In this document: positions 5,566 to 24,932 of the stretch, one piece after another
How positions within the stretch are numbered: position 1 is the first letter of the stretch
Layout of the letters: each line of letters starts with the position of its first letter
Origin: Clostridia bacterium
GTDB lineage: Bacteria; Bacillota; Clostridia; Oscillospirales; Acutalibacteraceae
NCBI GenBank assembly: GCA_017544665.1
Contig: JAFYDS010000150.1
Location: 1 to 39,727 of the forward strand
DNA length: 39,727 nt
Reading direction: 5' to 3'
Program-made: the position numbers and the translations under genes
Notes under the pieces: model-generated
Database searches by the model: none
What the model saw: only the letters and a program-made list of their open reading frames with translations
Told to the model about the DNA's origin: nothing

Positions 5566-7293
5566 TTATTCAACAATATACACTTTGACGCCATGCGGCG
5601 CGCAGACGGCGCTGAGCTTGCCGTCGCTTTCGGTTGTCACGCCGTCCCAGACGTCGCGGACGGTGTACCGCATCTTTTGCGGCAGATTGACGAAGCCCTC
5701 GTTCGCGAGCTTGGCGCAGTCGAGCGCGGTGGTCGTTTCGCGGCCCGTCTTGTTGAAGACGCAGACCGCTATCCGCGCGTCCGAAAGCGGCTTCAGGAGC
5801 ACGTCGACAAGTCCCGCCTTCACACGGCGGCAGGGGACGCCGAGCGCGTCCTGATTGATCGCGATCATGTCCTTGTTCGTGAGGATCTGCCAGACCTTGT
5901 TTTGCGTGTCGACCGTGCCGTCGTCCTTGACAAAGGCGCGGACGTCGTTGCCGAGGATCAGCGGCGCATTCATCATGCACCACAGAGAGAAGTGGCTGCG
6001 GTTTTCCTCGTGCGTCAGCTTGCCGTTGCCGACCTCGAGCATATCCGGGTCGTTCCAGCCGCCCTTGCAGGCGTGCTTCCAAAGCCGGACGGTGAACTCA
6101 TACAGCGCGAGAATCGACGCCCAGACCGGCTTGATGTCGCCCGTCGTGCGCCAGAGGTTGCCCGCCTCTGCTCCCCACTGCCACGGGCGGTTGAAGCCCC
6201 ATTCGCAGATCGAATAGACGATCGGCTTTTCGGGAACGCCGTTCCGGATCGCGAATTCTTTGGTGGCGCGCTTGAGCTCGCGCCCCATCAGCTTGTATTG
6301 TACCGCCGCGCTGTCAAAGCGCGAACCGACAGGGTTGTCGAAGACGAGCGTGTTGACGCCGTCCTGCAGCCGGATCGTGGTCTGGACGCGCCGTTCGCCG
6401 TGCAGCGGCATACGCCCCTTCGCGCAGTAAACGTGATATTCCTCTTTGCCGTTGACCGTGACGCGCACGAAGCGCTCGGCGTCGTCCGCCTTGGCGACAA
6501 GGAAGGTCAGCACATAGTCTCCCCCGGTCATCGGCTCCGTACAGAGCGAAAACGATCCCGCGCGGGAATCGAGTCCCGCGATAAAGGCTTCGCCGATCGC
6601 GTCGTCCTTGACGATCCGGGCGCGCCCATTAAGTACCGCCTTGTCGATTCCGTAGGTGACGCGTTCGCCGTCTTTTGAAAGCTCGATCTCGCGGATGCGC
6701 GGCGCCTTTTCGCTGATCGGGACGTTGTGGCAAAAGTCATACTTGAAATATTCGATGCCCCAGCTTGCGAACGTGTCGGCGTCGATCGCCTCGTGCCGCA
6801 GCGAGCCGGGGTAGTCTTCACACGTCAGCTTGCCGTTGGAAGAGTAGATGCCGAGCTTGAGCCCGCGGCTGTTGACATATTCCGCCAGCGCCTTGATGCC
6901 GTTCGGGAAGGTCGCCTTGTCGCATTGCAGGCGGCCGTTTTTGTCGCGCTCCGAGCTTTGCCAGCAGTCGTCGATGTTGACATACTGGTAGCCCGCTTCT
7001 CTGAGGCCGCTCTTGTCCATCGCGTCGGCGATCTCCTTGATGAGATCTTCACTGATATGCGTCGCAAAGAGGTTCCAGCTCGACCAGCCCATCGGGGGCG
7101 TCAGCGCGACGCCGTTGTCATAGGGCTTCGTCACGCGCTGGTCGAGGTGGAATTTGTGCGCCGCCTTTTTGACGGTGCAGACGGGGCAGAACTCTTTCTT
7201 TTTCATCTTGACGCCGAGGACGGTCAGTCCGGCGGCGGCAGCGCCTGCGCCCGCGGCGACGGCGGCGGATTGCAGCAGTTTTTTCTGTTCCAT
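5566..7293 (-). CDS. GH27 alpha-galactosidase-like glycosidase with inserted domain
   Basis: This 575-residue protein starts at an ATG preceded by AAAGGAG. It is a retaining alpha-galactosidase-type enzyme of family GH27: TPPMGWSSWN at about 65-74, NIDDCW at 106-111, and YDFC with the probable nucleophile D186. RTTGD with probable acid/base D386 and WNDPDML at 413-419 follow. Between about 196 and 345 the barrel is interrupted by a beta-rich stretch that looks like a carbohydrate-binding module of the CBM6/35 type. The C-terminal beta domain follows. The N-terminus has an Ala/Gly-rich hydrophobic stretch (about 8-28) followed by MKKKEF and CPVC; this is not a typical cleaved signal, so the enzyme may be anchored or cytoplasmic. 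It lies 30 bp downstream of an AEC carrier gene on the same strand. Alpha-N-acetylgalactosaminidase activity is an alternative. Confidence 0.88.
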   Translation of the reverse strand: MEQKKLLQSAAVAAGAGAAAAGLTVLGVKMKKKEFCPVCTVKKAAHKFHLDQRVTKPYDNGVALTPPMGWSSWNLFATHISEDLIKEIADAMDKSGLREAGYQYVNIDDCWQSSERDKNGRLQCDKATFPNGIKALAEYVNSRGLKLGIYSSNGKLTCEDYPGSLRHEAIDADTFASWGIEYFKYDFCHNVPISEKAPRIREIELSKDGERVTYGIDKAVLNGRARIVKDDAIGEAFIAGLDSRAGSFSLCTEPMTGGDYVLTFLVAKADDAERFVRVTVNGKEEYHVYCAKGRMPLHGERRVQTTIRLQDGVNTLVFDNPVGSRFDSAAVQYKLMGRELKRATKEFAIRNGVPEKPIVYSICEWGFNRPWQWGAEAGNLWRTTGDIKPVWASILALYEFTVRLWKHACKGGWNDPDMLEVGNGKLTHEENRSHFSLWCMMNAPLILGNDVRAFVKDDGTVDTQNKVWQILTNKDMIAINQDALGVPCRRVKAGLVDVLLKPLSDARIAVCVFNKTGRETTTALDCAKLANEGFVNLPQKMRYTVRDVWDGVTTESDGKLSAVCAPHGVKVYIVE

Positions 7294-7323: not shown

Positions 7324-8331
7324 TTATAGGATGGAAAAATAACGCATCAGAAATACTGTGAGGAAGATCGTCAGCACCGAGCAGACCGAAGTCCAGACCA
7401 CGAGCTGCGCGGCAAGCTGATCATCGCCGCCGATCTCGCTGACCATGACAGCGCTGGAGACCGCGACCGGGGAAGCGAAGATCCCGACCAGCGCGGGATA
7501 CTCCACTTTCGTAAACGGCAGAATGCCGGTCTTGGAAAGCAGAACGGCGCCGCCGATTGCGAACAGAGGCGCGAACACCAGACGCATCACAACGCCGAGC
7601 GTGATCTGTTTGCGCAGCGCGTGCACCGCCGAAAAATCGAACCTTGCGCCGAGCACGACGAGCGCCAGCGGCGTGGCGGCTTTTGCCGCCGTCGTCAGCG
7701 CCGTGAAGAAGAACGGACAGTCACGCGAAAACTGAAAGACGGCTTCGCCCGCGGCGTTCTTCGGCAGCAGCATCCGCACGCCGACGGCGGCGACGCCGAG
7801 CATGACGCCGATGATCAGCGGGTTCGTGATCGTACGCAGCAGCGTCTGTCGCAGCGGCGGCTTCTGTTCATCCGCGTAATGGGACAGGCAGATCACCGCA
7901 AGGGTGTTGAACATCAGAACCGTCACCGCTGTCGCGACGGCGGTGAACGCCACGGCCTGCGTGCCGCCGAGCGCTTCCGCGAGCGGGATGCCGAGGATGG
8001 CGGAATTGGAGCGGTAGATACATTGGATGATCGGTCCCTTCTGCAGCCGGTCGGGGACGAAGAGCCGCGCGCACAGGACGCCGATCGCGTATAACGCCAG
8101 TATGGCGGCCGCGATATAGGCGACCGCGTTCCAGTTGACGTCCTGCAGAGAGTCGATCTCATAGATGTTGCAAAACAGCAAAACCGGCAAAAAGACGCGG
8201 AACACGAGCTTGTTCGCCGTTTTGAAGAACGTGTCATCCGCGAAATGCAGCTTTCGAAGCACCACGCCAAGCAGGACCAGCAGCAGAATCGGCACGACTG
8301 CGTTTACCGCATAGAGAAATACCTGCACCAA
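7324..8331 (-). CDS. AEC family transporter (auxin efflux carrier / malate permease type)
   Basis: A 335-residue integral membrane protein with about ten hydrophobic segments in two halves. It has the AEC-type N-terminus (LLLVLLGVVLRK) and small polar motifs in the second half (GIFASPVAVSSAVM). Family members move organic anions, but the substrate here is unknown. No in-frame ATG fits: a TGA lies just upstream of the frame (8335-8337), so translation must begin at TTG 8331 (or GTG 8328). AAGGTG lies 7 nt before the TTG. It sits between trmO and the GH27 gene with short gaps, so the three may be cotranscribed. Confidence 0.85.
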   Translation of the reverse strand: MVQVFLYAVNAVVPILLLVLLGVVLRKLHFADDTFFKTANKLVFRVFLPVLLFCNIYEIDSLQDVNWNAVAYIAAAILALYAIGVLCARLFVPDRLQKGPIIQCIYRSNSAILGIPLAEALGGTQAVAFTAVATAVTVLMFNTLAVICLSHYADEQKPPLRQTLLRTITNPLIIGVMLGVAAVGVRMLLPKNAAGEAVFQFSRDCPFFFTALTTAAKAATPLALVVLGARFDFSAVHALRKQITLGVVMRLVFAPLFAIGGAVLLSKTGILPFTKVEYPALVGIFASPVAVSSAVMVSEIGGDDQLAAQLVVWTSVCSVLTIFLTVFLMRYFSIL

Positions 8332-8379: not shown

Positions 8380-9075
8380 TCAACCGGACGCTTCGTCTGC
8401 GTCGCGTACCTCGACGACCCGCAGCGTATCGCCCTCGACGGTGAAACCGATGTCGAGCGCGGCGCAGCGCAAATAGTAAACGCGTTCGGGGTCGTCCTGA
8501 TAACCCGGCCGCGGGTCGAGCGACAGCGTCTGTAAAAGCGCGTCGCGGTGGGACGAGGGGATCTGTTCAAAAAGCGCAGGCGGGAAATCGACCGTGAGGA
8601 CGCCGTCCGTTTTCGCAAAGCCGCTGGTCGCCTCCGGGTGGGCGTCGGCATAGGCGAGGTAGGGCTTGATGTCGAAGACCGGTGTCCCGTCCGCGAGATC
8701 GCCGCCTGAGACAAAAAGACACGGCGTGCCGCTTTTCGTTTTACCGACACCCTCGAATTTCACGCAGGACAGCCCGATCGGGTTCGGCCGGTAGGGGGAG
8801 CGCGACGCAAACACGCCGACGCGGGTGTTGCCGCCGAGCTTCGGCGGGCGGACGGTGGGCGAGTCGGATGGTCCGGCTTCGGAAAAGTGCCACAGCAGCC
8901 AGAGATGGGAATATCCCTCGATCCCGCGCAGGTAATCTGGATTCTGGAACGCGCCGTAAAACTCGATCCGTCCCTTCAGATCGGGCGCAAGCCCGCTTTG
9001 CCGCGGCAGTCCGAATTTCAGCGGAAAGTCGCAGCGGTACACGCCCACGGGGCGCAGGATAAGTTCGTCAGACAT
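8380..9075 (-). CDS. trmO: tRNA (N6-threonylcarbamoyladenosine37-N6)-methyltransferase TrmO
   Basis: 231 residues. TrmO (older names TsaA, YaeB) uses S-adenosylmethionine to methylate t6A37 in tRNA. Family marks visible here are the N-terminal RPVGVYRCDF, then GIEGYSHLWLLWHF, and TRVGVFASRSPYRPNPIGLS, followed by a C-terminal domain containing DIKPYLAYAD and the DPRPGYQDD segment. The start chosen is the ATG at 9075, preceded 6 nt away by GGAGGC; a TTG start at 9102 would be too far upstream and lacks a site. Its promoter is back to back with that of the divergent GH31 operon. Confidence 0.92.
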   Translation of the reverse strand: MSDELILRPVGVYRCDFPLKFGLPRQSGLAPDLKGRIEFYGAFQNPDYLRGIEGYSHLWLLWHFSEAGPSDSPTVRPPKLGGNTRVGVFASRSPYRPNPIGLSCVKFEGVGKTKSGTPCLFVSGGDLADGTPVFDIKPYLAYADAHPEATSGFAKTDGVLTVDFPPALFEQIPSSHRDALLQTLSLDPRPGYQDDPERVYYLRCAALDIGFTVEGDTLRVVEVRDADEASG

Positions 9076-9104: not shown

Positions 9105-9133
9105 ATTATAGCAGATTCCGCGACCGTTTGCAA
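9105..9133 (-). promoter_or_regulatory. Sigma-A promoter for trmO
   Basis: On the minus strand: TTGCAA (9128-9133), a 17-bp spacer and TATAAT (9105-9110), with an extended -10 TGC just before it. The -35 box abuts the -35 box of the divergent promoter. Confidence 0.75.
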
Positions 9134-9162
9134 TTGACTTTTGAGAACTTTACGATTATAAT
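9134..9162 (+). promoter_or_regulatory. Sigma-A promoter for the GH31 operon
   Basis: TTGACT (9134-9139), a 17-bp spacer, and TATAAT (9157-9162), about 34 bp before the GH31 start codon. Confidence 0.85.
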
Positions 9163-9195
9163 AAATAAGATAGCTTCTTTTCGGAGGTGCGAAGA

Positions 9196-11223
9196 ATGAT
9201 TACGTTTAAGCTGAAAAACAAAAGCTTCCGTATCCTGCGCGACGGGACGCCCATCTTCTCTTTGACAGAGGGCGCACGGATCGCGGAGGTCGCCAATATC
9301 GACGCGGACTATACGATGAGCCGCGGCAGCTTTGTTTTGAAAGAAAAGGTCGTCGGTCGCCGTCCGCTGTTCGTGGTGGATATGGTGCTCAAAGACGACG
9401 GCGTGCTGCTGGTTATGGACGAGGGCAAGCTGAAGCTCGAAACGCAGTATGACGGCGACCGGCTGAAGGTCACGCCGATCGGGCTGGGCATGTACGACAG
9501 GCTCTGGCTGCGCGTGCCCGCCGAATGGGATGAAGCCGTCTACGGCACGGGAGAAACCTTCAGCGAATTCAACCTGCGCGGCCACAAGAGCGACGTCTGG
9601 GTCAGCGAACACATCAACGCGATGCAGATCATGCGCAAGGTGGCGCAGATCGCGCTGCACATCAAACGGGACGACAAAAAGAAGAAGTTCGAGTCCTACG
9701 CGTCCTACTACGTCCAGCCGACCTATCTTTCCTCGCGCAAATACTTCTTCCATTCCGACGCGACCGCAATCTCGCGCTTCGACTTCACAGCGCCGACCGA
9801 GCACCGGCTCCAGATCGACCCGAACGCCGCATTCTATTTCGGCTTCGGCGACACGTTTGAAAAAGTGATGACCAACCTGACCGACCTCGTCGGGCGGCAG
9901 ATCCCGCTGCCCGCGTGGGTCCACGACGGCGAGATCCTCGGCGTCCAGGGCGGCACTCAGATCATGGATAAAAAGTTGCAGACCGCGCTCGAACACGACA
10001 TGAAGGTCGCCGGCGTCTGGATCCAGGACTGGGAGGGCCGCCGCGTCACCGCCGTCGGCAAACAGCTTTGCTGGAACTGGGAGTGGGACAAAGAGCTCTA
10101 CCCTGACCTCGACAAGCGCATCGCGTCCTACGGCGAACAGGGCGTTAAAATCCTCGGCTACTGCAACACCTTCCTCGCGGTCGAAAAGCCGCTTTACAAG
10201 ATCGCGTCCGAAAAAGGCTACTGCGTCAAGGACAAGAAGGGCGACGACTATCTCGTGACGATCACGACCTTCCCCGCGGCGATGGTCGATCTGACGAACC
10301 CCGACGCCTACGAATGGATCAAGGGCGTCATCAAGGAGAACCTGATCGGTTTCGGGCTTGTCGGCTGGATGGCGGACTTCGGCGAATATCTGCCGACGGA
10401 CTGCGTACTTTACAGCGGCGAGGACCCGTTTATCGTCCACAACACCTGGCCCGCCCTTTGGGCGAAGGTCAACCGCGAAGCGATCCGCGAGACCGGCAAC
10501 GAAGGCAAGATCATGTTCTTCACCCGCGCCGGCTATACCGATACCTGTAAATACTCCACGATGATGTGGAATGGCGACAACCACGTTGACTTTTCGGTCG
10601 ATCTCGGCTTGCCGTCCGTGATCCCGGCGATGCTGTCGCTGACCTGCTGCGGCTTCGGTCTGAGCCATTCCGATATCGGCGGCTACACGACCTTCTATAA
10701 CCTCAAACGCTCCGAAGAGCTGTTCATGCGCTGGTGCGAGATGAACGCGTTTTCTCCGCTGCTGCGCGGTCACGAGGGGCTCAACCCCGACCTCAACGCG
10801 CAGTTCGACGCGAGCGAGACCGTGCTGCGCCACGGCAAGTACATGAGCGAAAACCACGCGAAGCTGAAAGACTACCTGATGGCGGCGGAACGCTATAACA
10901 GCGAGACCGGCGTCGGCGTGGTGCGTCCGCTGTTCTTCTATTACGACGAGCCGCGCGCCTACAGCGAGCTGCACGAATACCTGCTCGGCAGAGACATTCT
11001 TGTCGCGCCCGTGCTCAAACAGGGCGCCATCACGCGCGAAGTGTACCTGCCGGAGGACAAGTGGATCCACGCGCCGACGGGCAGAGCGTTCGGCGGCGGC
11101 GTCCATGCCGTGGAAGCGCCGGTCGGGCAGATCCCGGTCTTCTACCGCGCCGACGCGGACGACAGCGTGAAAGCAATGATGCAGTCGCTCGTGTTCCCGA
11201 CGGAGGCTGACCTTCATGCTTGA
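9196..11223 (+). CDS. GH31 alpha-glycosidase, sulfoquinovosidase (YihQ)-like
   Basis: 675 residues from ATG 9196, 8 nt after CGGAGG; the GTG at 9187 overlaps that site and is rejected. It is a retaining GH31 enzyme, closest by motif to E. coli YihQ, which releases sulfoquinovose from its alpha-glycosides. Using my recollection of YihQ numbering, all positions align with a constant offset of 11. Nucleophile D405 is D394 (WMADFGEYLP), acid/base D472 is D461 (WNGD), Q262 is Q251, Q288 is Q277, W304 is W293 and Y508 is Y497. The sulfonate-binding R301, however, is Q290 (GKQLCWNW). No signal peptide, so it is expected in the cytoplasm. It overlaps the next gene by 8 bp, indicating one operon. The glycosidase call is firm; the sulfoquinovoside substrate is doubtful because of the R-to-Q change. 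Confidence 0.92.
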   Translation: MITFKLKNKSFRILRDGTPIFSLTEGARIAEVANIDADYTMSRGSFVLKEKVVGRRPLFVVDMVLKDDGVLLVMDEGKLKLETQYDGDRLKVTPIGLGMYDRLWLRVPAEWDEAVYGTGETFSEFNLRGHKSDVWVSEHINAMQIMRKVAQIALHIKRDDKKKKFESYASYYVQPTYLSSRKYFFHSDATAISRFDFTAPTEHRLQIDPNAAFYFGFGDTFEKVMTNLTDLVGRQIPLPAWVHDGEILGVQGGTQIMDKKLQTALEHDMKVAGVWIQDWEGRRVTAVGKQLCWNWEWDKELYPDLDKRIASYGEQGVKILGYCNTFLAVEKPLYKIASEKGYCVKDKKGDDYLVTITTFPAAMVDLTNPDAYEWIKGVIKENLIGFGLVGWMADFGEYLPTDCVLYSGEDPFIVHNTWPALWAKVNREAIRETGNEGKIMFFTRAGYTDTCKYSTMMWNGDNHVDFSVDLGLPSVIPAMLSLTCCGFGLSHSDIGGYTTFYNLKRSEELFMRWCEMNAFSPLLRGHEGLNPDLNAQFDASETVLRHGKYMSENHAKLKDYLMAAERYNSETGVGVVRPLFFYYDEPRAYSELHEYLLGRDILVAPVLKQGAITREVYLPEDKWIHAPTGRAFGGGVHAVEAPVGQIPVFYRADADDSVKAMMQSLVFPTEADLHA

Positions 11224-11881
11224 ACGACTGAATCAGGTGAATGACGTCCCGGTCGTCTCTGTATTTGACGACCGCTTCCGGACCTACGGCAAGGTGCTGA
11301 CCGGCTTCGACTTCGCGCCTCTGTGCCGTTATCTCGAGACGGAAACGCCGATTCCCGAAACGGGGAATATCTACGTTGCGTCCGATCCGGCGCTGGAAGC
11401 GATTTCCGTCTGCAAAGAGATCGAGACGACCGTTTACGGCAACATGCCGATCCAGGTCGGCTACTGCAACGGCAGAAACACGACCTACAACGGTTTCGAA
11501 TACCACAAGGGATCCGAGATCAACGTCGCCGCGACCGATTTGATGCTCGTCCTCGGCCACACGTGGCAAATCAAGGACAACTGCTTTTCTGTCGGCGGCG
11601 AGACCGTGTTCTTCGTCCCGCAGGGGACGGCGATCGAGCTGTATTCGACAACGCTGCATTTGTCTCCTTGCCGGGTGACGGATGCGGGCTTCCGCGCCGT
11701 CGTGATTCTGCCGCGCGGGACGAATACGCCGCTGGAAACAAGACCCGCCGACCCGACGGGCGAAGCGCGGCTGCTGCTGCAAAAAAACAAGTGGGTGCTC
11801 TCCCATCCCGACCGTGAACCGCTGATGAAGCAGGGCGCGTTTCCGGGGCTGATCGGAGAAAACAAAGAACTGCACTATTAA
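11216..11881 (+). CDS. DUF4867-like protein
   Basis: 221 residues. The ATG overlaps the GH31 stop (ATGCTTGA), so the two are translationally coupled. It has no signal or membrane segment. Visible features: a GYCNGRNTTYNGFEYHKGSE segment in the middle and alternating short strands with small polar turns, as in a cupin-like barrel. My recognition is DUF4867 (function unknown), from overall pattern rather than a search. Its place between a glycosidase and a sugar isomerase suggests a role on the released sugar, such as an epimerase, mutarotase or binding protein. That is inference from context. Confidence 0.7.
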   Translation: MLERLNQVNDVPVVSVFDDRFRTYGKVLTGFDFAPLCRYLETETPIPETGNIYVASDPALEAISVCKEIETTVYGNMPIQVGYCNGRNTTYNGFEYHKGSEINVAATDLMLVLGHTWQIKDNCFSVGGETVFFVPQGTAIELYSTTLHLSPCRVTDAGFRAVVILPRGTNTPLETRPADPTGEARLLLQKNKWVLSHPDREPLMKQGAFPGLIGENKELHY

Positions 11882-11895
11882 GGAGGCGGATTTCT

Positions 11896-13230
11896 ATGTC
11901 CTTCCAACTAGCCTACATCCCCATCGGCGTGCCGACGTTCCATCTGGAGTCGGCGCAGAAAGCCTTTGACGATTCCGTCGCTCTGCTCAAAGGGATCGAT
12001 CCGTCCGTCAAAACGCCGGACAAAATGCTGCTCTCGCTCGACAAGCTGAACGCGTTTCTCGACACGATCGATCCCGATCTTGTGGTCGTCCAGAATGTCA
12101 CGTTCGCCAACGCTGCCTATATGAGCGCGGTGCTGCGCCGCTTCTCGTGTCCCGTCCTCCTCTGGACGCTGCGCGAACCGGTGATCGACGGCGGCCGCCT
12201 GCGCCTCAATTCCCTGACCGGCGCTTACTCCGCCGCGAACATCATGCGTGCCTGCGGCAGACGTTTCGCCTATGTGTTCGGCGCGCCTGCGGAAGAGGAC
12301 GTGCAGCGCAAGATCGCGGCCGTTGTTGCGGCGGCGAAAATCAAAAAGCAGCTGCGCGCGCTGACGCTGCTGCAGATCGGGCACACGCCGGAGGGCTTCG
12401 GCTTCGGGCGGGGACTGGACGCGGAGCTGCTGTCGGTGTTCGGCGTCAACCTCAAGTCGATCGAAGCGCGCGAGTTGATCAACAAAGCGAAGACCTACAC
12501 CGACGACGAGATCGCGTCCTATCTTGACAACGCGAGAACCCGGATCGTCGGACTGGATAAGACGCCCGATAAAAACAAGCTGGACTTTGCCCGGCTCTAT
12601 AAGGCGTATGACGAATACGTGAAAGAGAATCATATCGGTGCGGTGTCCAGCCGCTGCTGGCCGGACTTCTTCGTCGATTTCGGGACGCCTGTCTGCGCGG
12701 TGCTCGCGATGCTCGGCGACAACGGCGTGCCCGCCTCTTGCGAAGCGGACGCCTACGGCGCGCTGTCGATGTATATCGGCCAGCACCTCAGCGGCAAGCC
12801 GACCTTCTTCGGCGACCCTGTCTCGCTCGACGAGGGCGAGAATACCATCACGTTCTGGCACTGCGGGACGGCGGCGTGCTCGCTCGCGCGGGAAGACACC
12901 GGCGCGGTCTGCGACGTCCACTGCAACCGCAAGATCGGCCCGACGCTGGACTTCGGCTGCAAAGCGGTGCCCGCGGTGACGGTGTTCCGGATCGGCCGCG
13001 AGCCGGACGGCAGTGTGCGCTTCTTCGTCTGCAAGGGCGAAGCGCTCGACAAGCCCAAGCAATTCAACGGTACGTCCATCGTGGTCAAAACCGAATGGGA
13101 CAGCAAGCAGATCGTGGAGAGGAGCGTCAAAAACGGCTGGGAGCCGCACTTCGTCGTCGTGATGGACGACGTGAAGGAACCCCTCCTCGCGCTGGCAGAT
13201 ATGCTGGATATCCCGGTGGAAGAGTATTGA
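11896..13230 (+). CDS. L-fucose isomerase-like sugar isomerase (COG2407 type)
   Basis: 444 residues from ATG 11896; AGGAGG (11881-11886) overlaps the stop codon of the upstream gene. It resembles the L-fucose/L-arabinose isomerase fold. The likely metal-binding and catalytic acids are E283 (CEADAYGA), D307 (FFGDP) and H322 (FWHCG). N-terminal Rossmann-like domains include VVVQNVTFAN and VLLWTLREP. Such enzymes interconvert aldoses and ketoses through an enediol with Mn2+. As the third gene of the operon it presumably isomerises the sugar freed by the GH31 enzyme. In Firmicutes sulfoquinovose clusters an isomerase makes 6-deoxy-6-sulfofructose, but no sulfofructose transaldolase or kinase/aldolase is in this window, so the product is unproven. 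Confidence 0.82.
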   Translation: MSFQLAYIPIGVPTFHLESAQKAFDDSVALLKGIDPSVKTPDKMLLSLDKLNAFLDTIDPDLVVVQNVTFANAAYMSAVLRRFSCPVLLWTLREPVIDGGRLRLNSLTGAYSAANIMRACGRRFAYVFGAPAEEDVQRKIAAVVAAAKIKKQLRALTLLQIGHTPEGFGFGRGLDAELLSVFGVNLKSIEARELINKAKTYTDDEIASYLDNARTRIVGLDKTPDKNKLDFARLYKAYDEYVKENHIGAVSSRCWPDFFVDFGTPVCAVLAMLGDNGVPASCEADAYGALSMYIGQHLSGKPTFFGDPVSLDEGENTITFWHCGTAACSLAREDTGAVCDVHCNRKIGPTLDFGCKAVPAVTVFRIGREPDGSVRFFVCKGEALDKPKQFNGTSIVVKTEWDSKQIVERSVKNGWEPHFVVVMDDVKEPLLALADMLDIPVEEY

Positions 13231-13252: not shown

Positions 13253-13278
13253 ACCGGCGCGGGACGCCGGTATTCTTT
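13253..13278 (+). terminator. Terminator after the GH31 operon
   Basis: ACCGGCG (13253-13259), loop CGGGA, and CGCCGGT (13265-13271), followed by a short T-rich run (attcttt). The weak U tract may allow some read-through into the acetyltransferase gene. Confidence 0.65.
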
Positions 13279-13766: not shown

Positions 13767-16208
13767 TCAGATCGCCTTCATCAGCGCCGGCAGCTTCGCG
13801 ATCGCGGAAGGAATGCCCTTGAGCAGCTTGCCCAGACCCTTCGCGGACGACGTGTCGTCGTTGAGAATGTCGAGCAGACCCTGCGCCATGTCCTCGGTGA
13901 AGACGCCCATCGACATCGCGATGAAGTTGCGGATCGGGATCTGCAGCGCCATCGCGGCAAGCATCTTGCCGTCGCCGTTTTCGGCGGAGCCGAACTTGCT
14001 CATCGCGCCGGAGATCAGCTTGCAGATGCGGCCGCCCCACTTGGTGTCCTGCGCGTCGTGCAGGCAGCAGTAGATGTCGATCGGCTTGCGCGGGTCGCGC
14101 TCGTCCGCCGGCAGTTCGCCGTACAGTGCGGCAAAATCAGCGCGGCTGATGTTCGCGACGTCGTCGTAATACGCCGGGGCGCTCTCACGGTAGTCGGGGA
14201 TCTCACAAGCTTCCGCCTTGACAGTCAGCGTCGCCTGGAGCTTGATGTCGCGCGAGGAGGCGCCGACGAGAATATCAAACTTGCCGGCCTCCACACACCA
14301 GTCGTTGGTGTTGACGTTGAAGAACGCAAACGCGCGCTTGTCGAGCGTGAGGGCGATCTCCTTGCTTTCACCCGGCGCGAGCCAGACCTTCCGGAAGCCC
14401 TTGAGCTCCTGCACGGGGCGGAAGATCGTGCTTTCCAGATCGGCAACATAGAGCTGCGCGATCTCGGCGCCGGCAACGTCGCCCGTGTTCGTCACTTTGA
14501 AGGTGACCGTGAGGGTGTCGCCGTCGTTGATCGTCTTCTTGGAAAGTTTGAGGTCGCTGTATTCGAACGTCGTGTAGGACAGACCGTGACCGAACGGGAA
14601 AAGGACGTCCTTTTTCGCCGTGTCGTAATAGCGGTAGCCGAGATAGATCGACTCGCGGTGTTCGCTCGTGACCGGACCGCCGGGATAGTTCCCGTAGGTC
14701 GGGTTGTCGCTGAACGAGAGGGGATAGGTCTCGATCGTTTTGCCGCTCGGGTTGACTTCGCCCGTGAGGATGCGCGCGACCGCCGCGCCGCCCGCTTCGC
14801 CGCCGAGACCGGAATTGAGGAGCCCCTTGACTTCGCTCAGCCACGGCATCTCAACAACGCTGCCGCCGGCGAGCACCACGACGGTGTTCGGGTTCGCCTT
14901 CGCGACTTCGAGGATCAGCGTGTTGTGGCAATTCGGCATCCGGATGTCCTCGCGGTCATAGCCTTCGCCTTCGAATTCTTCGGTGAGGCCCGCGAACACA
15001 ACCGCGACGTCGGCGGCTTTCGCCTGCCGGACCGCCTCAGCGATCAGCGCGTCGTCCACCACGTCTCTGCCCTTACTGTAGCCCTTGGCGTAGGTGAAGT
15101 TCACGCCGCGTTTGCCGAGCTCCCAGTAGGCGTTGTCGATCTGGAACGGGTTGACGACCGAGGAGCCTGCGCCCTGATAGCGCGGGAACTTCGCCATTTC
15201 GCCGATCACGGCGATCTTTGCGCCTTTTTTGAGCGGCAGGATATTGTCGTCGTTCTTGAGCAGCTGCATCGACTGTTCCGCGACCTCCTGCGCGAGCGCG
15301 TGGTGCGCCGCCTGGTCGAAGGTGTGATCGGTTTCCAGCTGCGGCTTGCTCTTCATGATAAGAGCGACGACGTTATCGACCGCCGCGTCGAGCACATCCA
15401 TCGGCAGCTCGCCGTTTTCGACAGCGGCAAGGATCTTCTTTTCGTTGTAATCGCCGCTCGAGGGCATCTCCAGATCGGTACCGGCCTTCAGACCCGGTAC
15501 GCGGTCCACCGAGGCGCCCCAGTCGGTGATGAACAGCCCTTCAAAGCCCCATTCACCGCGGGCGATCTCCTGCTGGAGATGGACCTGCTCGGAGCCGTAC
15601 AGACCGTTGACGCGGTTGTAGCAGTTCATGATCGTCCAGGGCTGTCCTTCTTTGACGGCGATCTCAAACGCCGTGAGATACAGCTCGCGCAGCGCGCGCT
15701 CGTCAACGATCTCGTCCACGACCATGCGGAACGCCTCCTGGCTGTTGCAGGCGAAGTGCTTGAGCGACGCGCCGACGCCCATGCTCTGCACGCCGTTGAT
15801 CCACGCCGCGGCGCATTTGCCGGACAGATAGGGATCTTCCGAGAAATACTCGAAGTTTCTGCCGCAGGTCGGGGCGCGCTTGATGTTCGTGCCGGGGCCG
15901 AGGAGGACGGACACCTTCTCTTTGAGGCATTCTTCGCCGAGCGCCTTGCCTTCACGGACGATCAGGTCGGGGTCCCACGAGCAGCCGAGCGTGGCGGAGT
16001 TCGGGAACGCCGTCGCGGGGTAGGAGTTGCCGAGACCGACGCCGTCCGCGTTCGGGTTTTGCTTGCGCAGCCCGTTCGGACCGTCGGTGACCATGATCTG
16101 CGGCAGGCCGAGCGCCTCGTCCGCCTCCAGATGCCAGTAATCAAAGCCGGAAACAAATTTCGCTTTCTGCTGCAGCGTCATCTTTGCAACGATTTCGGGA
16201 TATTTCAT
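13767..16208 (-). CDS. GH3 beta-glucosidase-type glycosidase with C-terminal extension
   Basis: 813 residues; the ATG lies 8 nt after AAGGAG. It is a family GH3 enzyme: an N-terminal TIM barrel with TDGPNGLR (41-48), GPGTNIKR, KHFACN (150-155), and the nucleophile D229 in FITDWGAS. Next comes the alpha/beta sandwich with EGEGYDRE, where the general acid usually lies, and a fibronectin-III-like domain (about 590-690, VTNTGDVAGAEIAQLYV). There is no signal peptide, so it should act in the cytoplasm. The last ~120 residues (CEIPDYRES to the end) form an extra region beyond the Fn3-like domain. It is divergent from an AraC-type regulator that may control it. The substrate is most likely a beta-glucoside or beta-xyloside, not decidable here. 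Confidence 0.92.
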   Translation of the reverse strand: MKYPEIVAKMTLQQKAKFVSGFDYWHLEADEALGLPQIMVTDGPNGLRKQNPNADGVGLGNSYPATAFPNSATLGCSWDPDLIVREGKALGEECLKEKVSVLLGPGTNIKRAPTCGRNFEYFSEDPYLSGKCAAAWINGVQSMGVGASLKHFACNSQEAFRMVVDEIVDERALRELYLTAFEIAVKEGQPWTIMNCYNRVNGLYGSEQVHLQQEIARGEWGFEGLFITDWGASVDRVPGLKAGTDLEMPSSGDYNEKKILAAVENGELPMDVLDAAVDNVVALIMKSKPQLETDHTFDQAAHHALAQEVAEQSMQLLKNDDNILPLKKGAKIAVIGEMAKFPRYQGAGSSVVNPFQIDNAYWELGKRGVNFTYAKGYSKGRDVVDDALIAEAVRQAKAADVAVVFAGLTEEFEGEGYDREDIRMPNCHNTLILEVAKANPNTVVVLAGGSVVEMPWLSEVKGLLNSGLGGEAGGAAVARILTGEVNPSGKTIETYPLSFSDNPTYGNYPGGPVTSEHRESIYLGYRYYDTAKKDVLFPFGHGLSYTTFEYSDLKLSKKTINDGDTLTVTFKVTNTGDVAGAEIAQLYVADLESTIFRPVQELKGFRKVWLAPGESKEIALTLDKRAFAFFNVNTNDWCVEAGKFDILVGASSRDIKLQATLTVKAEACEIPDYRESAPAYYDDVANISRADFAALYGELPADERDPRKPIDIYCCLHDAQDTKWGGRICKLISGAMSKFGSAENGDGKMLAAMALQIPIRNFIAMSMGVFTEDMAQGLLDILNDDTSSAKGLGKLLKGIPSAIAKLPALMKAI

Positions 16209-17921: not shown

Positions 17922-18977
17922 ATGAAACTTTCGAAACGTCTGTTTGCCGCCGCGCTGGCGCTCATGCTTGTGCTTGCGCTCGCCGCCTGCGGCATCAACA
18001 ACACGAACAACACCACAACGACCGCGCCCGCCGTGACGCCGACCGCCGTCGATTACAAGGGCGACACGATCAAGGTCGCCGCGATCAAGGGCCCCACGGG
18101 GATGGGCATGGTCAACATGATGGACAACGACATCTACGATTTCACGCTGACGAGCGACCCGACGGAGGTTGCGACGCTGCTTGCGACGGGCAAGGTGGAT
18201 ATCGCCGCCTGTCCGCTGAACCTCGCCGCGAATCTCTATAAAAAGACGAACGGCGGCGTCCAGATGCTCGCGATCAATACGCTCGGCGTGCTGTACCTGC
18301 TGACGAACGGCGAAACCGTCAACAGCCTTTCCGACCTCAACGGCAAGACGATCTACGCCACGGGACAGGGCGCGACGCCGGAATATATCCTCTCCGACCT
18401 GCTGAAAGCGAACGGCGTGACCGCGGTCCAGGTGGAATACCTCAGCGAGCACAGTGAACTTGCCGCGAAGATCGCGACCGGCGACTGCAAGATCGCTGTT
18501 TTGCCCGAACCGTTTGTGACGGTCGCGACAAATAAAAACAGCGCCGTCACCGTGGCGCTGAGCCTGACCGAGCTTTGGAACGACGCGCATCCGGAGTCCC
18601 GTCTCGCGCAGGGCTGCGTGGTCGCGCGCAAAGCGTTCATCGACAGCAATCCCGACGGCGTGGCGGCGTTCCTTGCCGACGCGCGCAGCTCCGTGGAATA
18701 CGTGAACACGAATCCGCTTGCCGCGAGCGCGAAAATGGTGGAAAAGACGATCGTCGATGAAGCGCTCTTCTCCATCCCGGCGGATACCGCCGAAAAGAAG
18801 CAGGATTCCGCCAAGACCGAAAAGGCCAACGCGGTGATCGGCCGCTGCAATATCGTGCTGATCGAAGGCGCGCAGATGCAGCAGATCGCCGACGAAAACT
18901 ACAAGGTGCTCTTTGCCGCGGACCCGACGTCCGTCGGCGGCGCACTGCCTGACGGCGCGTTGTACTATGGCGCGTAA
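17922..18977 (+). CDS. ABC transporter substrate-binding lipoprotein (NMT1/SsuA-like)
   Basis: 351 residues; GAAAGGAT lies before the ATG. A lipoprotein signal peptide ends in LAAC (Cys23), followed by a Thr/Asn-rich linker. The mature protein has the two-lobe type II binding fold with KGPTGMGMV, DIAACPLNLAANLY, ATGQGATPEY and LPEPFVT, a pattern shared with nitrate, sulfonate, taurine or pyrimidine binding proteins. It captures a small solute outside the membrane for the permease and ATPase encoded next. The substrate cannot be told from sequence. It starts 46 bp after the Crp/Fnr gene and overlaps the permease gene by 11 bp. Confidence 0.88.
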   Translation: MKLSKRLFAAALALMLVLALAACGINNTNNTTTTAPAVTPTAVDYKGDTIKVAAIKGPTGMGMVNMMDNDIYDFTLTSDPTEVATLLATGKVDIAACPLNLAANLYKKTNGGVQMLAINTLGVLYLLTNGETVNSLSDLNGKTIYATGQGATPEYILSDLLKANGVTAVQVEYLSEHSELAAKIATGDCKIAVLPEPFVTVATNKNSAVTVALSLTELWNDAHPESRLAQGCVVARKAFIDSNPDGVAAFLADARSSVEYVNTNPLAASAKMVEKTIVDEALFSIPADTAEKKQDSAKTEKANAVIGRCNIVLIEGAQMQQIADENYKVLFAADPTSVGGALPDGALYYGA

Positions 18978-19740
18978 CGAACGGCTGAAGAACAGTCTGA
19001 AAACCCTTGCCGCTGCCGCGTTCTGGCTCTTGGTCTGGCAAGGGCTTTCGCTTTTGGTGCATAAGCCGCTGCTGCTGCCGTCGCCGGTCGAGGCGGCGAA
19101 GCGCCTCGGTGCGCTCTGCGTGACCGGTCCGTTCTGGACGAGCATCGGCCTGACGCTGCTGCGTGTGACGGCGGGCTTTTGCTGCGGCGTCGTCTGCGGC
19201 GTGCTGCTCGGCGCGCTGACGGCAAAATCGAAGCTGATGGAACGGCTGTTTGCGCCGCTGCTCGCCGTTGTCAAGGCGACGCCTGTCGCGTCGTTCATCA
19301 TCCTCGCGCTCGTGTGGCTGCAAAAGGACCTTGTGCCGGTCTTCATCACGTTTCTGATCGTTCTGCCGGTCATCTGGGCGAACGTCCTCGAGGGCATCCG
19401 CCAGACCGACCGCGGGCTTTTGGAAATGGCGCGGGTGTTCCGTCTGCCGCGCCGGAAGGTGTTTTCGAAGGTGTACGCGCCGTCGGTCCTGCCGTACTTT
19501 GCGGCGGGCGCCGCCACGGCGATGGGACTATCGTGGAAAGCCGGCGTCGCGGCGGAGGTGATCGCGATGTCGAACAGCTCGGTCGGCTATCATCTCTACC
19601 GCGCGAAGATCAACCTCGAAACGCCCGATCTGTTCGCGTGGACGGCGGTCGTCGTGCTGCTGTCTGTGCTGCTCGAGCGGCTGCTGCGGCGGGTGATCCG
19701 CCGGATGGAAGGGAGGAAACGCGATGCTGCAAATCCATGA
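18967..19740 (+). CDS. ABC transporter permease (SsuC/TauC type)
   Basis: 257 residues starting at an ATG inside the end of the lipoprotein gene; no strong ribosome site is visible, so translational coupling is likely. About six membrane segments. The EAA-type loop is IRQTDRGLLEMARVFRLPRRKVFSKVYAPSVLP in part, where the ATPase docks. It belongs with the BPD_transp_1 permeases of the nitrate/sulfonate/bicarbonate group. It overlaps the ATPase gene by 17 bp. Confidence 0.87.
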   Translation: MARNERLKNSLKTLAAAAFWLLVWQGLSLLVHKPLLLPSPVEAAKRLGALCVTGPFWTSIGLTLLRVTAGFCCGVVCGVLLGALTAKSKLMERLFAPLLAVVKATPVASFIILALVWLQKDLVPVFITFLIVLPVIWANVLEGIRQTDRGLLEMARVFRLPRRKVFSKVYAPSVLPYFAAGAATAMGLSWKAGVAAEVIAMSNSSVGYHLYRAKINLETPDLFAWTAVVVLLSVLLERLLRRVIRRMEGRKRDAANP

Positions 19741-20284
19741 GCTGACGTTTTCCTACCTCCCGGAGCAACCGCTGTTCGACCGCTTTTCGCTCGAAGCCCG
19801 AAAAGGGGAGCGCGTCTGTCTCAAGGGCGCGTCCGGCAAAGGCAAAACGACGCTTTTACGGCTGATCGCCGGACTCGAAACGCCGAACGGCGGCGCGATC
19901 ACGCTTCCGCCCGACTGCAAAACGGCGATGGTCTTTCAGGAGGACCGCCTGCTGCCGTGGCTGACGGCGAAGGGCAACGTGTCTCTGTGCAGCAGCGACG
20001 CTGCCGCGGAAGACTGGCTTTGCGCCTTCGGGCTCGAAGACGAGCTGGACGCCTATCCGTCCACGCTCTCCGGCGGAATGTGCCGCCGCGTGGCGCTGGC
20101 GCGCGCCTGCGCGGTTGCGCCTGATCTGCTGCTGCTCGACGAGGCGTTCAAGGGGATCGATCCCCAGCGCAAGGAAGCGATCATGACGCTGCTGCAAGAA
20201 CGCTTTCAAAACAGCCTGATCCTGTTTACCAGCCACGACGACGCGGAGATCGCCGCGTTCGCCACGAGAATCGTTGAAATATAA
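19724..20284 (+). CDS. ABC transporter ATP-binding protein, compact
   Basis: 186 residues, shorter than the usual ~240-260 of this importer group. All core motifs are present: Walker A GASGKGKTT (about 36-44), Q loop VFQEDRLLPW, signature LSGGM, Walker B LLLLDEA, and H loop TSHDD. It lacks the extra C-terminal segment of SsuB/TauB proteins. GGAGG lies inside the end of the permease gene ahead of the ATG. It powers import with the two upstream products. Confidence 0.88.
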   Translation: MLQIHELTFSYLPEQPLFDRFSLEARKGERVCLKGASGKGKTTLLRLIAGLETPNGGAITLPPDCKTAMVFQEDRLLPWLTAKGNVSLCSSDAAAEDWLCAFGLEDELDAYPSTLSGGMCRRVALARACAVAPDLLLLDEAFKGIDPQRKEAIMTLLQERFQNSLILFTSHDDAEIAAFATRIVEI

Positions 20285-23999: not shown

Positions 24000-24932
24000 G
24001 TGTTTTTTGAGAATATGAAATCCGCTGCCGGACAGGTGGCGATCTTGTATCTGATTGTGCTGGTCGGCTTTATCTGCGACAAGGTCAAGCTGTTCACGGA
24101 AGCGACGGCAAGAGCAACGGTGAATCTGTTGCTGTATATCATCACCCCGTGCATCATCATCGACGCCTTCCTCAAGATGGAGTATTCGCCCGCGCGGGCA
24201 AAGAAGCTCTTTCTTGCGCTGGGGCTGATGTTTCTGCTGCACATCATCGCGATCGTGATGAATCTGCCGTTCTTCCGCAGAAAGGGCGGACCGTACAACC
24301 CGATTTATAAATATGCGAGCATCTACGGCAACGTCGGCTTTATGGCGATCCCGCTGGCCAAGGCGGTGCTCGGGGCAACGGGCGTGTTCTACTGTTCGAC
24401 TGGGATCATTGCGTTCAATGTGCTCACATTTACTCACGGGATCCGTGTGATGGCGGGGGATCAGTCGAATTTCGACTGGAAAAAGCTGATCGTGAACCCC
24501 GGTGTGATCGGCGTCACCGTCGGACTGCCGCTGTTCCTGCTGAACGTGGAGGTGCCGACGATCATCGCGCAGCCGATCTCGCTGATCGCGGGGCTCAACA
24601 CGGCGATCGCAATGCTGATTTTCGGCACGTATCTCGCGAACACCGACCTCAAAACGATGTTTACGGCGAAGGGGATCTACCTCGTCGCGCTGCTGAAACT
24701 GATCGCCCTGCCTGTGTCCTGTATTCTGCTGTTCCACGCGATGGGCGTCAAAGGCCCGCTGCTTGTGGCCTGCGCCATTTCAGCGAGCGTGCCCTCGGGC
24801 AACAACACCTTTATGTTCTCTTCCAAATACGGACTGGACGTCGGTATGGCGTCGAAGACCGTCGCGCTTGTTTCCGTGTTTTCCATTCTGACTATGCCGG
24901 TCATCATCGCTTTCGCGCAAAGCATGGCCTAA
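24000..24932 (+). CDS. AEC family transporter
   Basis: 310 residues with ten or so membrane segments in two halves; a typical AEC start (VGFICDKVKLFTEATARATVNLLLYIITPC) and the second-half motif SVPSGNNTFMFSSKYG. The start is taken as GTG 24000, 6 nt after GGGAG; an ATG at 24015 lacks a site. Family members export or exchange organic acids. The neighbouring citrate synthase makes a tricarboxylic or dicarboxylic substrate plausible but not shown. This is the second AEC gene in the window, and the two proteins differ clearly. Confidence 0.85.
   Translation: MFFENMKSAAGQVAILYLIVLVGFICDKVKLFTEATARATVNLLLYIITPCIIIDAFLKMEYSPARAKKLFLALGLMFLLHIIAIVMNLPFFRRKGGPYNPIYKYASIYGNVGFMAIPLAKAVLGATGVFYCSTGIIAFNVLTFTHGIRVMAGDQSNFDWKKLIVNPGVIGVTVGLPLFLLNVEVPTIIAQPISLIAGLNTAIAMLIFGTYLANTDLKTMFTAKGIYLVALLKLIALPVSCILLFHAMGVKGPLLVACAISASVPSGNNTFMFSSKYGLDVGMASKTVALVSVFSILTMPVIIAFAQSMA

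Follow-up and report, generated by a model that had tools for sequence, protein, structure and literature searches.

The window, that is, the whole stretch of 39,727 nucleotides that was analysed, contains a unit of three genes on the + strand, which encode a GH31 protein, a DUF4867 protein and a homologue of the SftI-family isomerases (Table 1). The first 8 nt of the DUF4867 gene lie within the GH31 gene. A ribosome-binding site and a sigma-70-like sequence precede the unit, and a terminator-like hairpin follows it. Three sigma-70-like sites were found between positions 8900 and 13500, against a mean of 1.1 in shuffled sequences; the terminator-like hairpins of the region (five, against 5.4 in shuffles) are not above the shuffled level.

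Table 1. Features of the three-gene unit and of the residues discussed in the text (positions in the window).
Feature	Position	Strand	Basis
Second sigma-70-like promoter, divergent from the 9134-9162 site	9105-9133	-	consensus match only
Sigma-70-like promoter, 11/12 matches	9134-9162	+	consensus match only
Ribosome-binding site GGAGG	9183-9187	+	sequence reading; 8 nt before ATG 9196
GH31 sulfoquinovosidase-like enzyme, Gln type, 675 aa	9196-11223	+	ORF from ATG 9196
N-terminal loop with H139 (9610-9612) and K148 (9637-9639)	9610-9639	+	alignment columns
Residues 276-296, including the Q290 codon	10021-10083	+	alignment
ITTFPAA segment, residues 356-362	10261-10281	+	alignment; FGEF (YihQ 367-370) in 6/10 Arg rows
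D394, YihQ D405 equivalent	10375-10377	+	alignment
D461 (YihQ D472) to H463	10576-10584	+	alignment
DUF4867 protein (SftX/SqvB family)	11216-11881	+	PF16161, 248 bits
Sulfoquinovose isomerase homologue (SftI/SqvD family)	11896-13230	+	NF048012, 420 bits, under the 700 cut-off
Terminator-like hairpin directly 3' of the isomerase gene	13253-13271	+	consensus match only

The unit is flanked on one side by a gene for a Melibiase_2-type alpha-galactosidase (5566-7293, -) and on the other by one for an arabinopyranosidase-like enzyme (13767-16208, -), which scored 778 bits against a cut-off of 1300. Genes at 7324-8331 (-) and 24000-24932 (+) encode two transporters of the auxin-efflux-carrier kind; the first lies beside trmO and is divergent from the GH31 unit, an order kept in L005, L006/L031 and L007, from three other genomes. 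After genes for AraC- and Crp-like regulators, ABC transporter genes (17922-20284, +) encode a substrate-binding protein similar to SsuA (60 bits against a cut-off of 163.5) and a permease similar to SaoP/SsuC, and could represent a putative sulfonate importer. A 108-bp tandem repeat of 2.7 copies (1127-1415) falls within the 3' portion of a gene whose product resembles ribosomal protein S1.

The GH31 protein matched the TIM-barrel (PF01055, 128.7 bits, gathering threshold 23.5) and C-terminal (PF21365, 64.5 bits, threshold 24.4) domains of the family, as well as the YihQ-type alpha-glucosidase model NF007746 of NCBIfam (724 bits, cut-off 553). It aligned with E. coli YihQ (5aed) over most of its length (E = 2e-179), with 46% identity over YihQ residues 42-668, and a clear match was also obtained with SftG of Eubacterium rectale (6pnr). 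The protein was also aligned with the product of MG1655 yihQ. As the original prediction had stated, a constant offset of 11 relates the two proteins: Q251, Q277, W293, D394, D461 and Y497 correspond to Q262, Q288, W304, D405, D472 and Y508. Thus the catalytic pair (which we take to be D405 as the nucleophile and D472 as the acid/base) and the presumed recognition residues Q262, Q288, W304 and Y508 are all kept. The exception is R301, presumably the sulfonate ligand and the signature of the GH31 sulfoquinovosidases; at its position the alignment places Q290 (codon CAG at 10063-10065), in agreement with the prediction, and for this reason the enzyme was not classified as a canonical sulfoquinovosidase. 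The window enzyme further differs from YihQ in having Thr at position 369, Pro at 371 and His at 474 (YihQ numbering) and in the 153-158 loop, whereas in SftG residue 301 is Arg and the FGEF segment is present.

R282 or R283 had been named beforehand as residues that might fill the place of R301, and by alignment neither is a specific replacement. R283 aligns with an arginine that is also present in YihQ. R282 aligns with an isoleucine of YihQ, is a lysine in several Arg-type enzymes and a cysteine in the second Gln subgroup, and it is not conserved across the Gln clade. A sequencing error as the source of the glutamine was discarded because the close relatives in which this position is readable also have Gln. 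A literature search found no Arg-to-Gln GH31 sulfoquinovosidase among the matches listed, judged by titles and the beginnings of abstracts in a collection that covers few subscription papers.

The glutamine is frequent among the relatives of the window enzyme. Position 301 was readable in 104 loci, where it was Gln in 93, Arg in 10 and His in 1; this sample was fetched mostly by similarity to the window, three of its genes occur twice (three locus pairs), and seven further loci had no readable GH31 protein at that position. Two even draws, of 391 genomes from the class and 398 from the phylum, yielded 14 YihQ-type genes in genomes other than the window's, nine with Arg and five with Gln (two fragments from genome G719 were counted as one gene). 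A search of 13 genomes from the class to which G719 belongs gave a match in G719 alone. Close versions of the GH31 gene are carried by ten genomes of the window's genus, its own included; eight of these copies, each with Gln, group together as a clade of the tree, and the other two (G010 and G015) are fragmentary, with residue 290 being Gln in G010 and lying outside the fragment in G015. Of the best 80 of at least 591 relatives, 47 have a record title that refers to a ruminant host or to a RUG (rumen uncultured genome) isolate.

A tree was built with 98 of the 106 GH31 rows (88 Gln and 10 Arg, including YihQ; 95 different sequences), leaving out five fragments of less than 600 aa and three rows with unknown residues; the GH31 proteins of L155 (Gln, with an SftT homologue present) and L062 (His) are therefore outside it. 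We observed that 85 of the Gln rows form a single clade (SH-aLRT 99), and that the other three (L151 and two genes in L158) are nested among the Arg types. The residue labels require at least three changes on this tree, two of them forced by well supported branches. Gln may be the derived or the ancestral state. The alignment, the tree and the residue states of the loci thus bear out the predicted existence of a real subfamily in which R301 is replaced by Gln and the rest of the named pocket is retained.

The change at position 301 is accompanied by another one. Where six of the ten Arg rows read FGEF, every one of the 88 Gln rows in the tree has TTFPAA or TAFPAA, and in most of the 85 clade rows residues 356-362 read ITTFPAA. 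The residue pairs at positions 301 and 369 over the 98 rows are Q-T in 87, Q-A in 1, R-E in 8, R-A in 1 and R-D in 1. As judged from the aligned sequences, residue 301 and the 356-362 segment change together and constitute a coupled switch. Three additional residues, K148, H139 and H463, are fixed in 85/85 rows of the Gln clade and absent from 10/10 Arg rows; the loop that carries K148 and H139 contains an insertion, and H463 is two residues after D461. The three nested rows have Gln and a TTFPA or TAFPA segment together with an N-terminal loop of the Arg type, and since they lack K148, H139 and H463, these residues cannot be a general replacement for the arginine. When the nested rows were compared with every fourth row of the Gln clade and with their Arg-type kin, a single one of the 16 windows of 40 residues, 341-380, was nearer to the Gln clade. 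A tree of residues 280-380 still places these rows with their Arg kin, which argues against recombination of 341-380 as their sole origin; convergence, conversion or an ancestral Gln are possible explanations.

We also examined the gene neighbourhoods of these enzymes. In E. rectale, SftG is encoded with genes for a transaldolase, an isomerase, a reductase and a DUF4867 protein, according to the accessible part of the report on the sulfo-SFT cluster (PMC11968277), and the gene set of the Gln-type loci outside the window's subclade corresponds to it. The counts were made on 66 clade loci (65 Gln and 1 His, L062) that belong to other subclades and have at least 5 kb of room on the 3' side. An SftT or reductase homologue was present within 9 kb in 62 of them; taken one by one, SftT was found in 54, an HIBADH-family reductase in 59, SftI in 61, a DUF4867 protein in 35, a TauE exporter in 34, a ROK protein in 37 and an MFS_2 transporter in 49. 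A representative SftT matched the SF-transaldolase of B. megaterium with E = 4e-95, while other transaldolases reached 1e-43 at best and entries named fructose-6-phosphate aldolase 1e-21 or weaker. The reductase homologue scores higher against other enzymes of the HIBADH family than against the SLA reductase 6sm7. A search for GPH symporters gave 12-19 matches per genome and did not discriminate. Position 30 of the transaldolase (L049:12000-12698), which is Arg in the B. megaterium enzyme, was also considered as a covarying marker and rejected, because R, K or N occur there in the Gln clusters; most of the window-type clusters have Asn, and the others any of R, K or N.

Four of the 66 loci (L068, L089, L103 and L107) had neither of the sulfo-SFT markers, SftT or reductase, within 9 kb. 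The Gln-type enzyme of L103 (L103:8529-16439), from a Halanaerobiales MAG, is the deepest member of the clade, and its neighbours are not sulfo-SFT genes; they encode an MFS_2 transporter, a PfkB kinase, a TIM-barrel isomerase-like protein and a DeoR regulator. The nested Gln enzyme of L151 is encoded near a class II aldolase, an ABC transporter and an SftI homologue, a set possibly reminiscent of sulfo-EMP2.

These neighbourhoods bear on whether the substrate is sulfonated at all. The loss of the arginine that we take to be the sulfonate ligand would fit an enzyme acting on a non-sulfonated alpha-glycoside, such as a glucoside, a quinovoside or a uronide, with the isomerase producing an ordinary ketose, and genes of the DUF4867 and fucose-isomerase families are also found in ordinary aldose/ketose clusters in the accessible text of PMC11968277. 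The absence of sulfo-SFT downstream genes from the window's own subclade points in the same direction. We nevertheless regard this explanation as improbable, given that the transaldolase of these loci is nearest to SF-transaldolase, that the TauE exporter is present in about half of the loci counted, and that a sulfoacetaldehyde-reductase-like gene is found in genomes that lack the transaldolase. Of the two readings originally offered for the missing arginine, a related glycoside without a 6-sulfonate is hence disfavoured, as most Gln enzymes lie beside sulfo-SFT homologues and the window's subclade has the sulfo-TK-like pair described below, and as the intermediates of both routes are sulfonated; a 6-sulfonate that is held differently is the alternative better supported by gene context.

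A different possibility is that the substrate is sulfonated but is not SQ-glycerol, with another aglycone or another sulfosugar being accepted and a new leaving-group site being marked by the K148, H139 loop and H463. Several of the differences fixed in the Gln clade are indeed located in the N-terminal loop with its insertion and beside the acid/base. In addition, genome G166 holds both types at separate loci: its Arg-type enzyme (L126) is clustered with SftT and with SqwI- and SqwF-like genes, and its two Gln-type enzymes (L158) are encoded near ABC transporter genes, which suggests that the latter have another job. This explanation appears rather unlikely to us, because the equivalents of Q262 and Q288 are kept and because the accompanying enzymes resemble those of an Arg-type sulfo-SFT-like cluster, L125: the SftI homologue of the window is 59% identical to its counterpart in L125, and the transaldolase of the Gln cluster L049 is 65% identical to that of L125. 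The low NF048012 score of the window's isomerase was discarded as a sign of another substrate, since the Arg-type homologue from the same cluster (genome G368) scores about the same, 404 bits.

The subclade of the window differs from the rest of the clade in its downstream genes. None of its ten genomes, which include the window's own (given as 74% complete) and one given as 97% complete, yielded a homologue of SftT, of the reductase or of TauE, so the combination of SftT and SLA reductase that denotes a sulfo-SFT pathway was not detected in this subclade; all three were matched in two other Gln congeners, G025 and G030, two of the G025 matches containing a stop. The three-gene order is kept in the loci that are long enough to show it. 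In the DUF4867 and SftI proteins, the subclade retains every position with a conservation of 97% or more elsewhere (41/41 in each, in 10 and 3 sequences, respectively), and dN/dS values in the subclade were 0.12-0.28 (0.14-0.28 for GH31 pairs). From these values the DUF4867 and SftI proteins look active. They also bear on the idea that the GH31 enzyme is decaying or inactive, which the loss of a presumed substrate-binding residue could indicate; with such dN/dS values, the catalytic Asp residues in place and the gene order maintained, we consider decay extremely improbable.

A distinct PF02502 isomerase, with scores of 134-145 bits, was detected in 10/10 subclade genomes and in 0/14 of the other congeners (Fisher p = 5e-7, uncorrected for shared ancestry); it was separated post hoc, by bit score, from the ordinary PF02502 copy, which scores about 195-211 bits when complete. 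In the window's genome, G000, the lower-scoring kind alone was detected, and no PF02502 protein was found in G021. In all eight of the loci fetched, the isomerase gene is followed by a gene for an iron-type alcohol dehydrogenase (Fe-ADH), whose best PDB match was 6jko (241 bits; next match 145), the sulfoacetaldehyde reductase BkTauF as named in the accessible part of PMC6616044. The Fe-ADH passes no NCBIfam cut-off; its best scores were 213 bits against PsrA (cut-off 424) and 164 against SarD (cut-off 700). In the sulfo-TK pathway, SqwI belongs to PF02502 and SqwF to PF00465, in the accessible text of PMC9594981. The subclade pair shares 57% and 40% identity with its counterpart inside L132, an Arg-type sulfo-TK cluster that also includes both transketolase halves, a TauE exporter, a DUF4867 protein and an SftI-like isomerase. 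A homologue of the Wadjet protein JetA is encoded near this cluster (L132:3225-4613).

By homology, then, the subclade has an SqwI-type PF02502 isomerase and an SqwF-type Fe-ADH, in addition to its SftI and DUF4867 homologues. Unlike the known sulfo-TK (SqwGHIF) clusters, its genes are split over two loci, no TauE was found and no transketolase class specific to the subclade was detected among the 24 congeners searched, all of which gave matches to Transketolase_N (1-3 each); a shared transketolase would have to carry out the SqwGH steps. The two-gene locus suggests a split sulfo-TK pathway. For the window's own genome the evidence carries a caveat: its isomerase/Fe-ADH locus (on contig C47) is 99.2% identical to that of G012 (contig C132), a different species, over 5984 bp (L171:8915-14898 vs L178:1-5984), in a stretch that begins just before the isomerase gene, whereas identity between the two genomes is 83.6% in the preceding DNA and 82% in the GH31 region. 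This copy may therefore reflect a recent transfer within the genus or a fault of assembly or binning. The remaining copies that were fetched share 70-91% protein identity and are independent, and our assessment, which is based on the whole subclade, is unchanged by this caveat.

The sulfo-SFT, sulfo-TK and possible EMP2-like contexts share SQ and sulfofructose, which argues that the Gln enzymes release SQ and hold its sulfonate differently. We consider it probable that the window enzyme is a variant of the GH31 alpha-sulfoquinovosidases that would release sulfoquinovose (SQ) from its glycosides and bind the 6-sulfonate without the canonical arginine. The sulfonate would be accommodated in a C6 pocket rebuilt by residue 301 and the TTFPAA change, and in the main clade K148, H139 and H463 might help to hold it, a hypothetical contact with the ligand. 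By homology, the SQ released would be isomerised to sulfofructose by the SftI homologue, and the DUF4867 protein would be a further member of the route. In most Gln-type loci sulfofructose would then be processed by the transaldolase and the reductase; in the window's subclade the route would most likely be that of the sulfo-transketolase pathway, with the SqwI- and SqwF-like proteins encoded at the second locus and a transketolase not restricted to these genomes. A partial parallel is offered by the NAD+-dependent sulfoquinovosidases, which belong to another family: there too, in the accessible part of the source, a group with a changed sulfonate-site residue occurs in unusual gene clusters, but the contact concerned is made by a backbone amino nitrogen and the site is intact in the authors' models.

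More broadly, we tentatively propose that the Bacillota possess a second, arginine-free mode by which GH31 enzymes recognise the 6-sulfonate of SQ, marked by the coupled 301/FGEF swap, which would have arisen or reverted at least twice on the present tree. Such enzymes may make up a large share of the ruminant-gut 'yihQ' genes and feed transaldolase or transketolase pathways. The signature R301 that we had assumed is absent from the whole Gln clade and from 5 of the 14 YihQ-type genes of the even draws, and most of the loci examined contain sulfoglycolysis homologues. Should the Gln enzymes act on SQ glycosides, there would be more than one solution to the pocket, and nature would offer an Arg-to-Gln panel for studying how the sulfonate is recognised; otherwise, SQ degraders are miscounted in gene surveys. 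In a 2026 rumen study, yihQ was amplified with primers 1201F and 1526R; according to its accessible part (PMC13219744), one long branch holds 64% of 1220 and 47.5% of 1548 rumen yihQ variants, and only a few variants were enriched on addition of SQ. The primer names given there imply codons of about 401-509, so that the amplicon would leave out residues 301 and 369. That the long branch corresponds to the Gln clade is a lead and not a result. As a separate observation, a protein of about 830 aa without matches in Pfam or NCBIfam (L042:14134-16632) is encoded in 10 of 90 loci, where its gene frequently closes the cassette.
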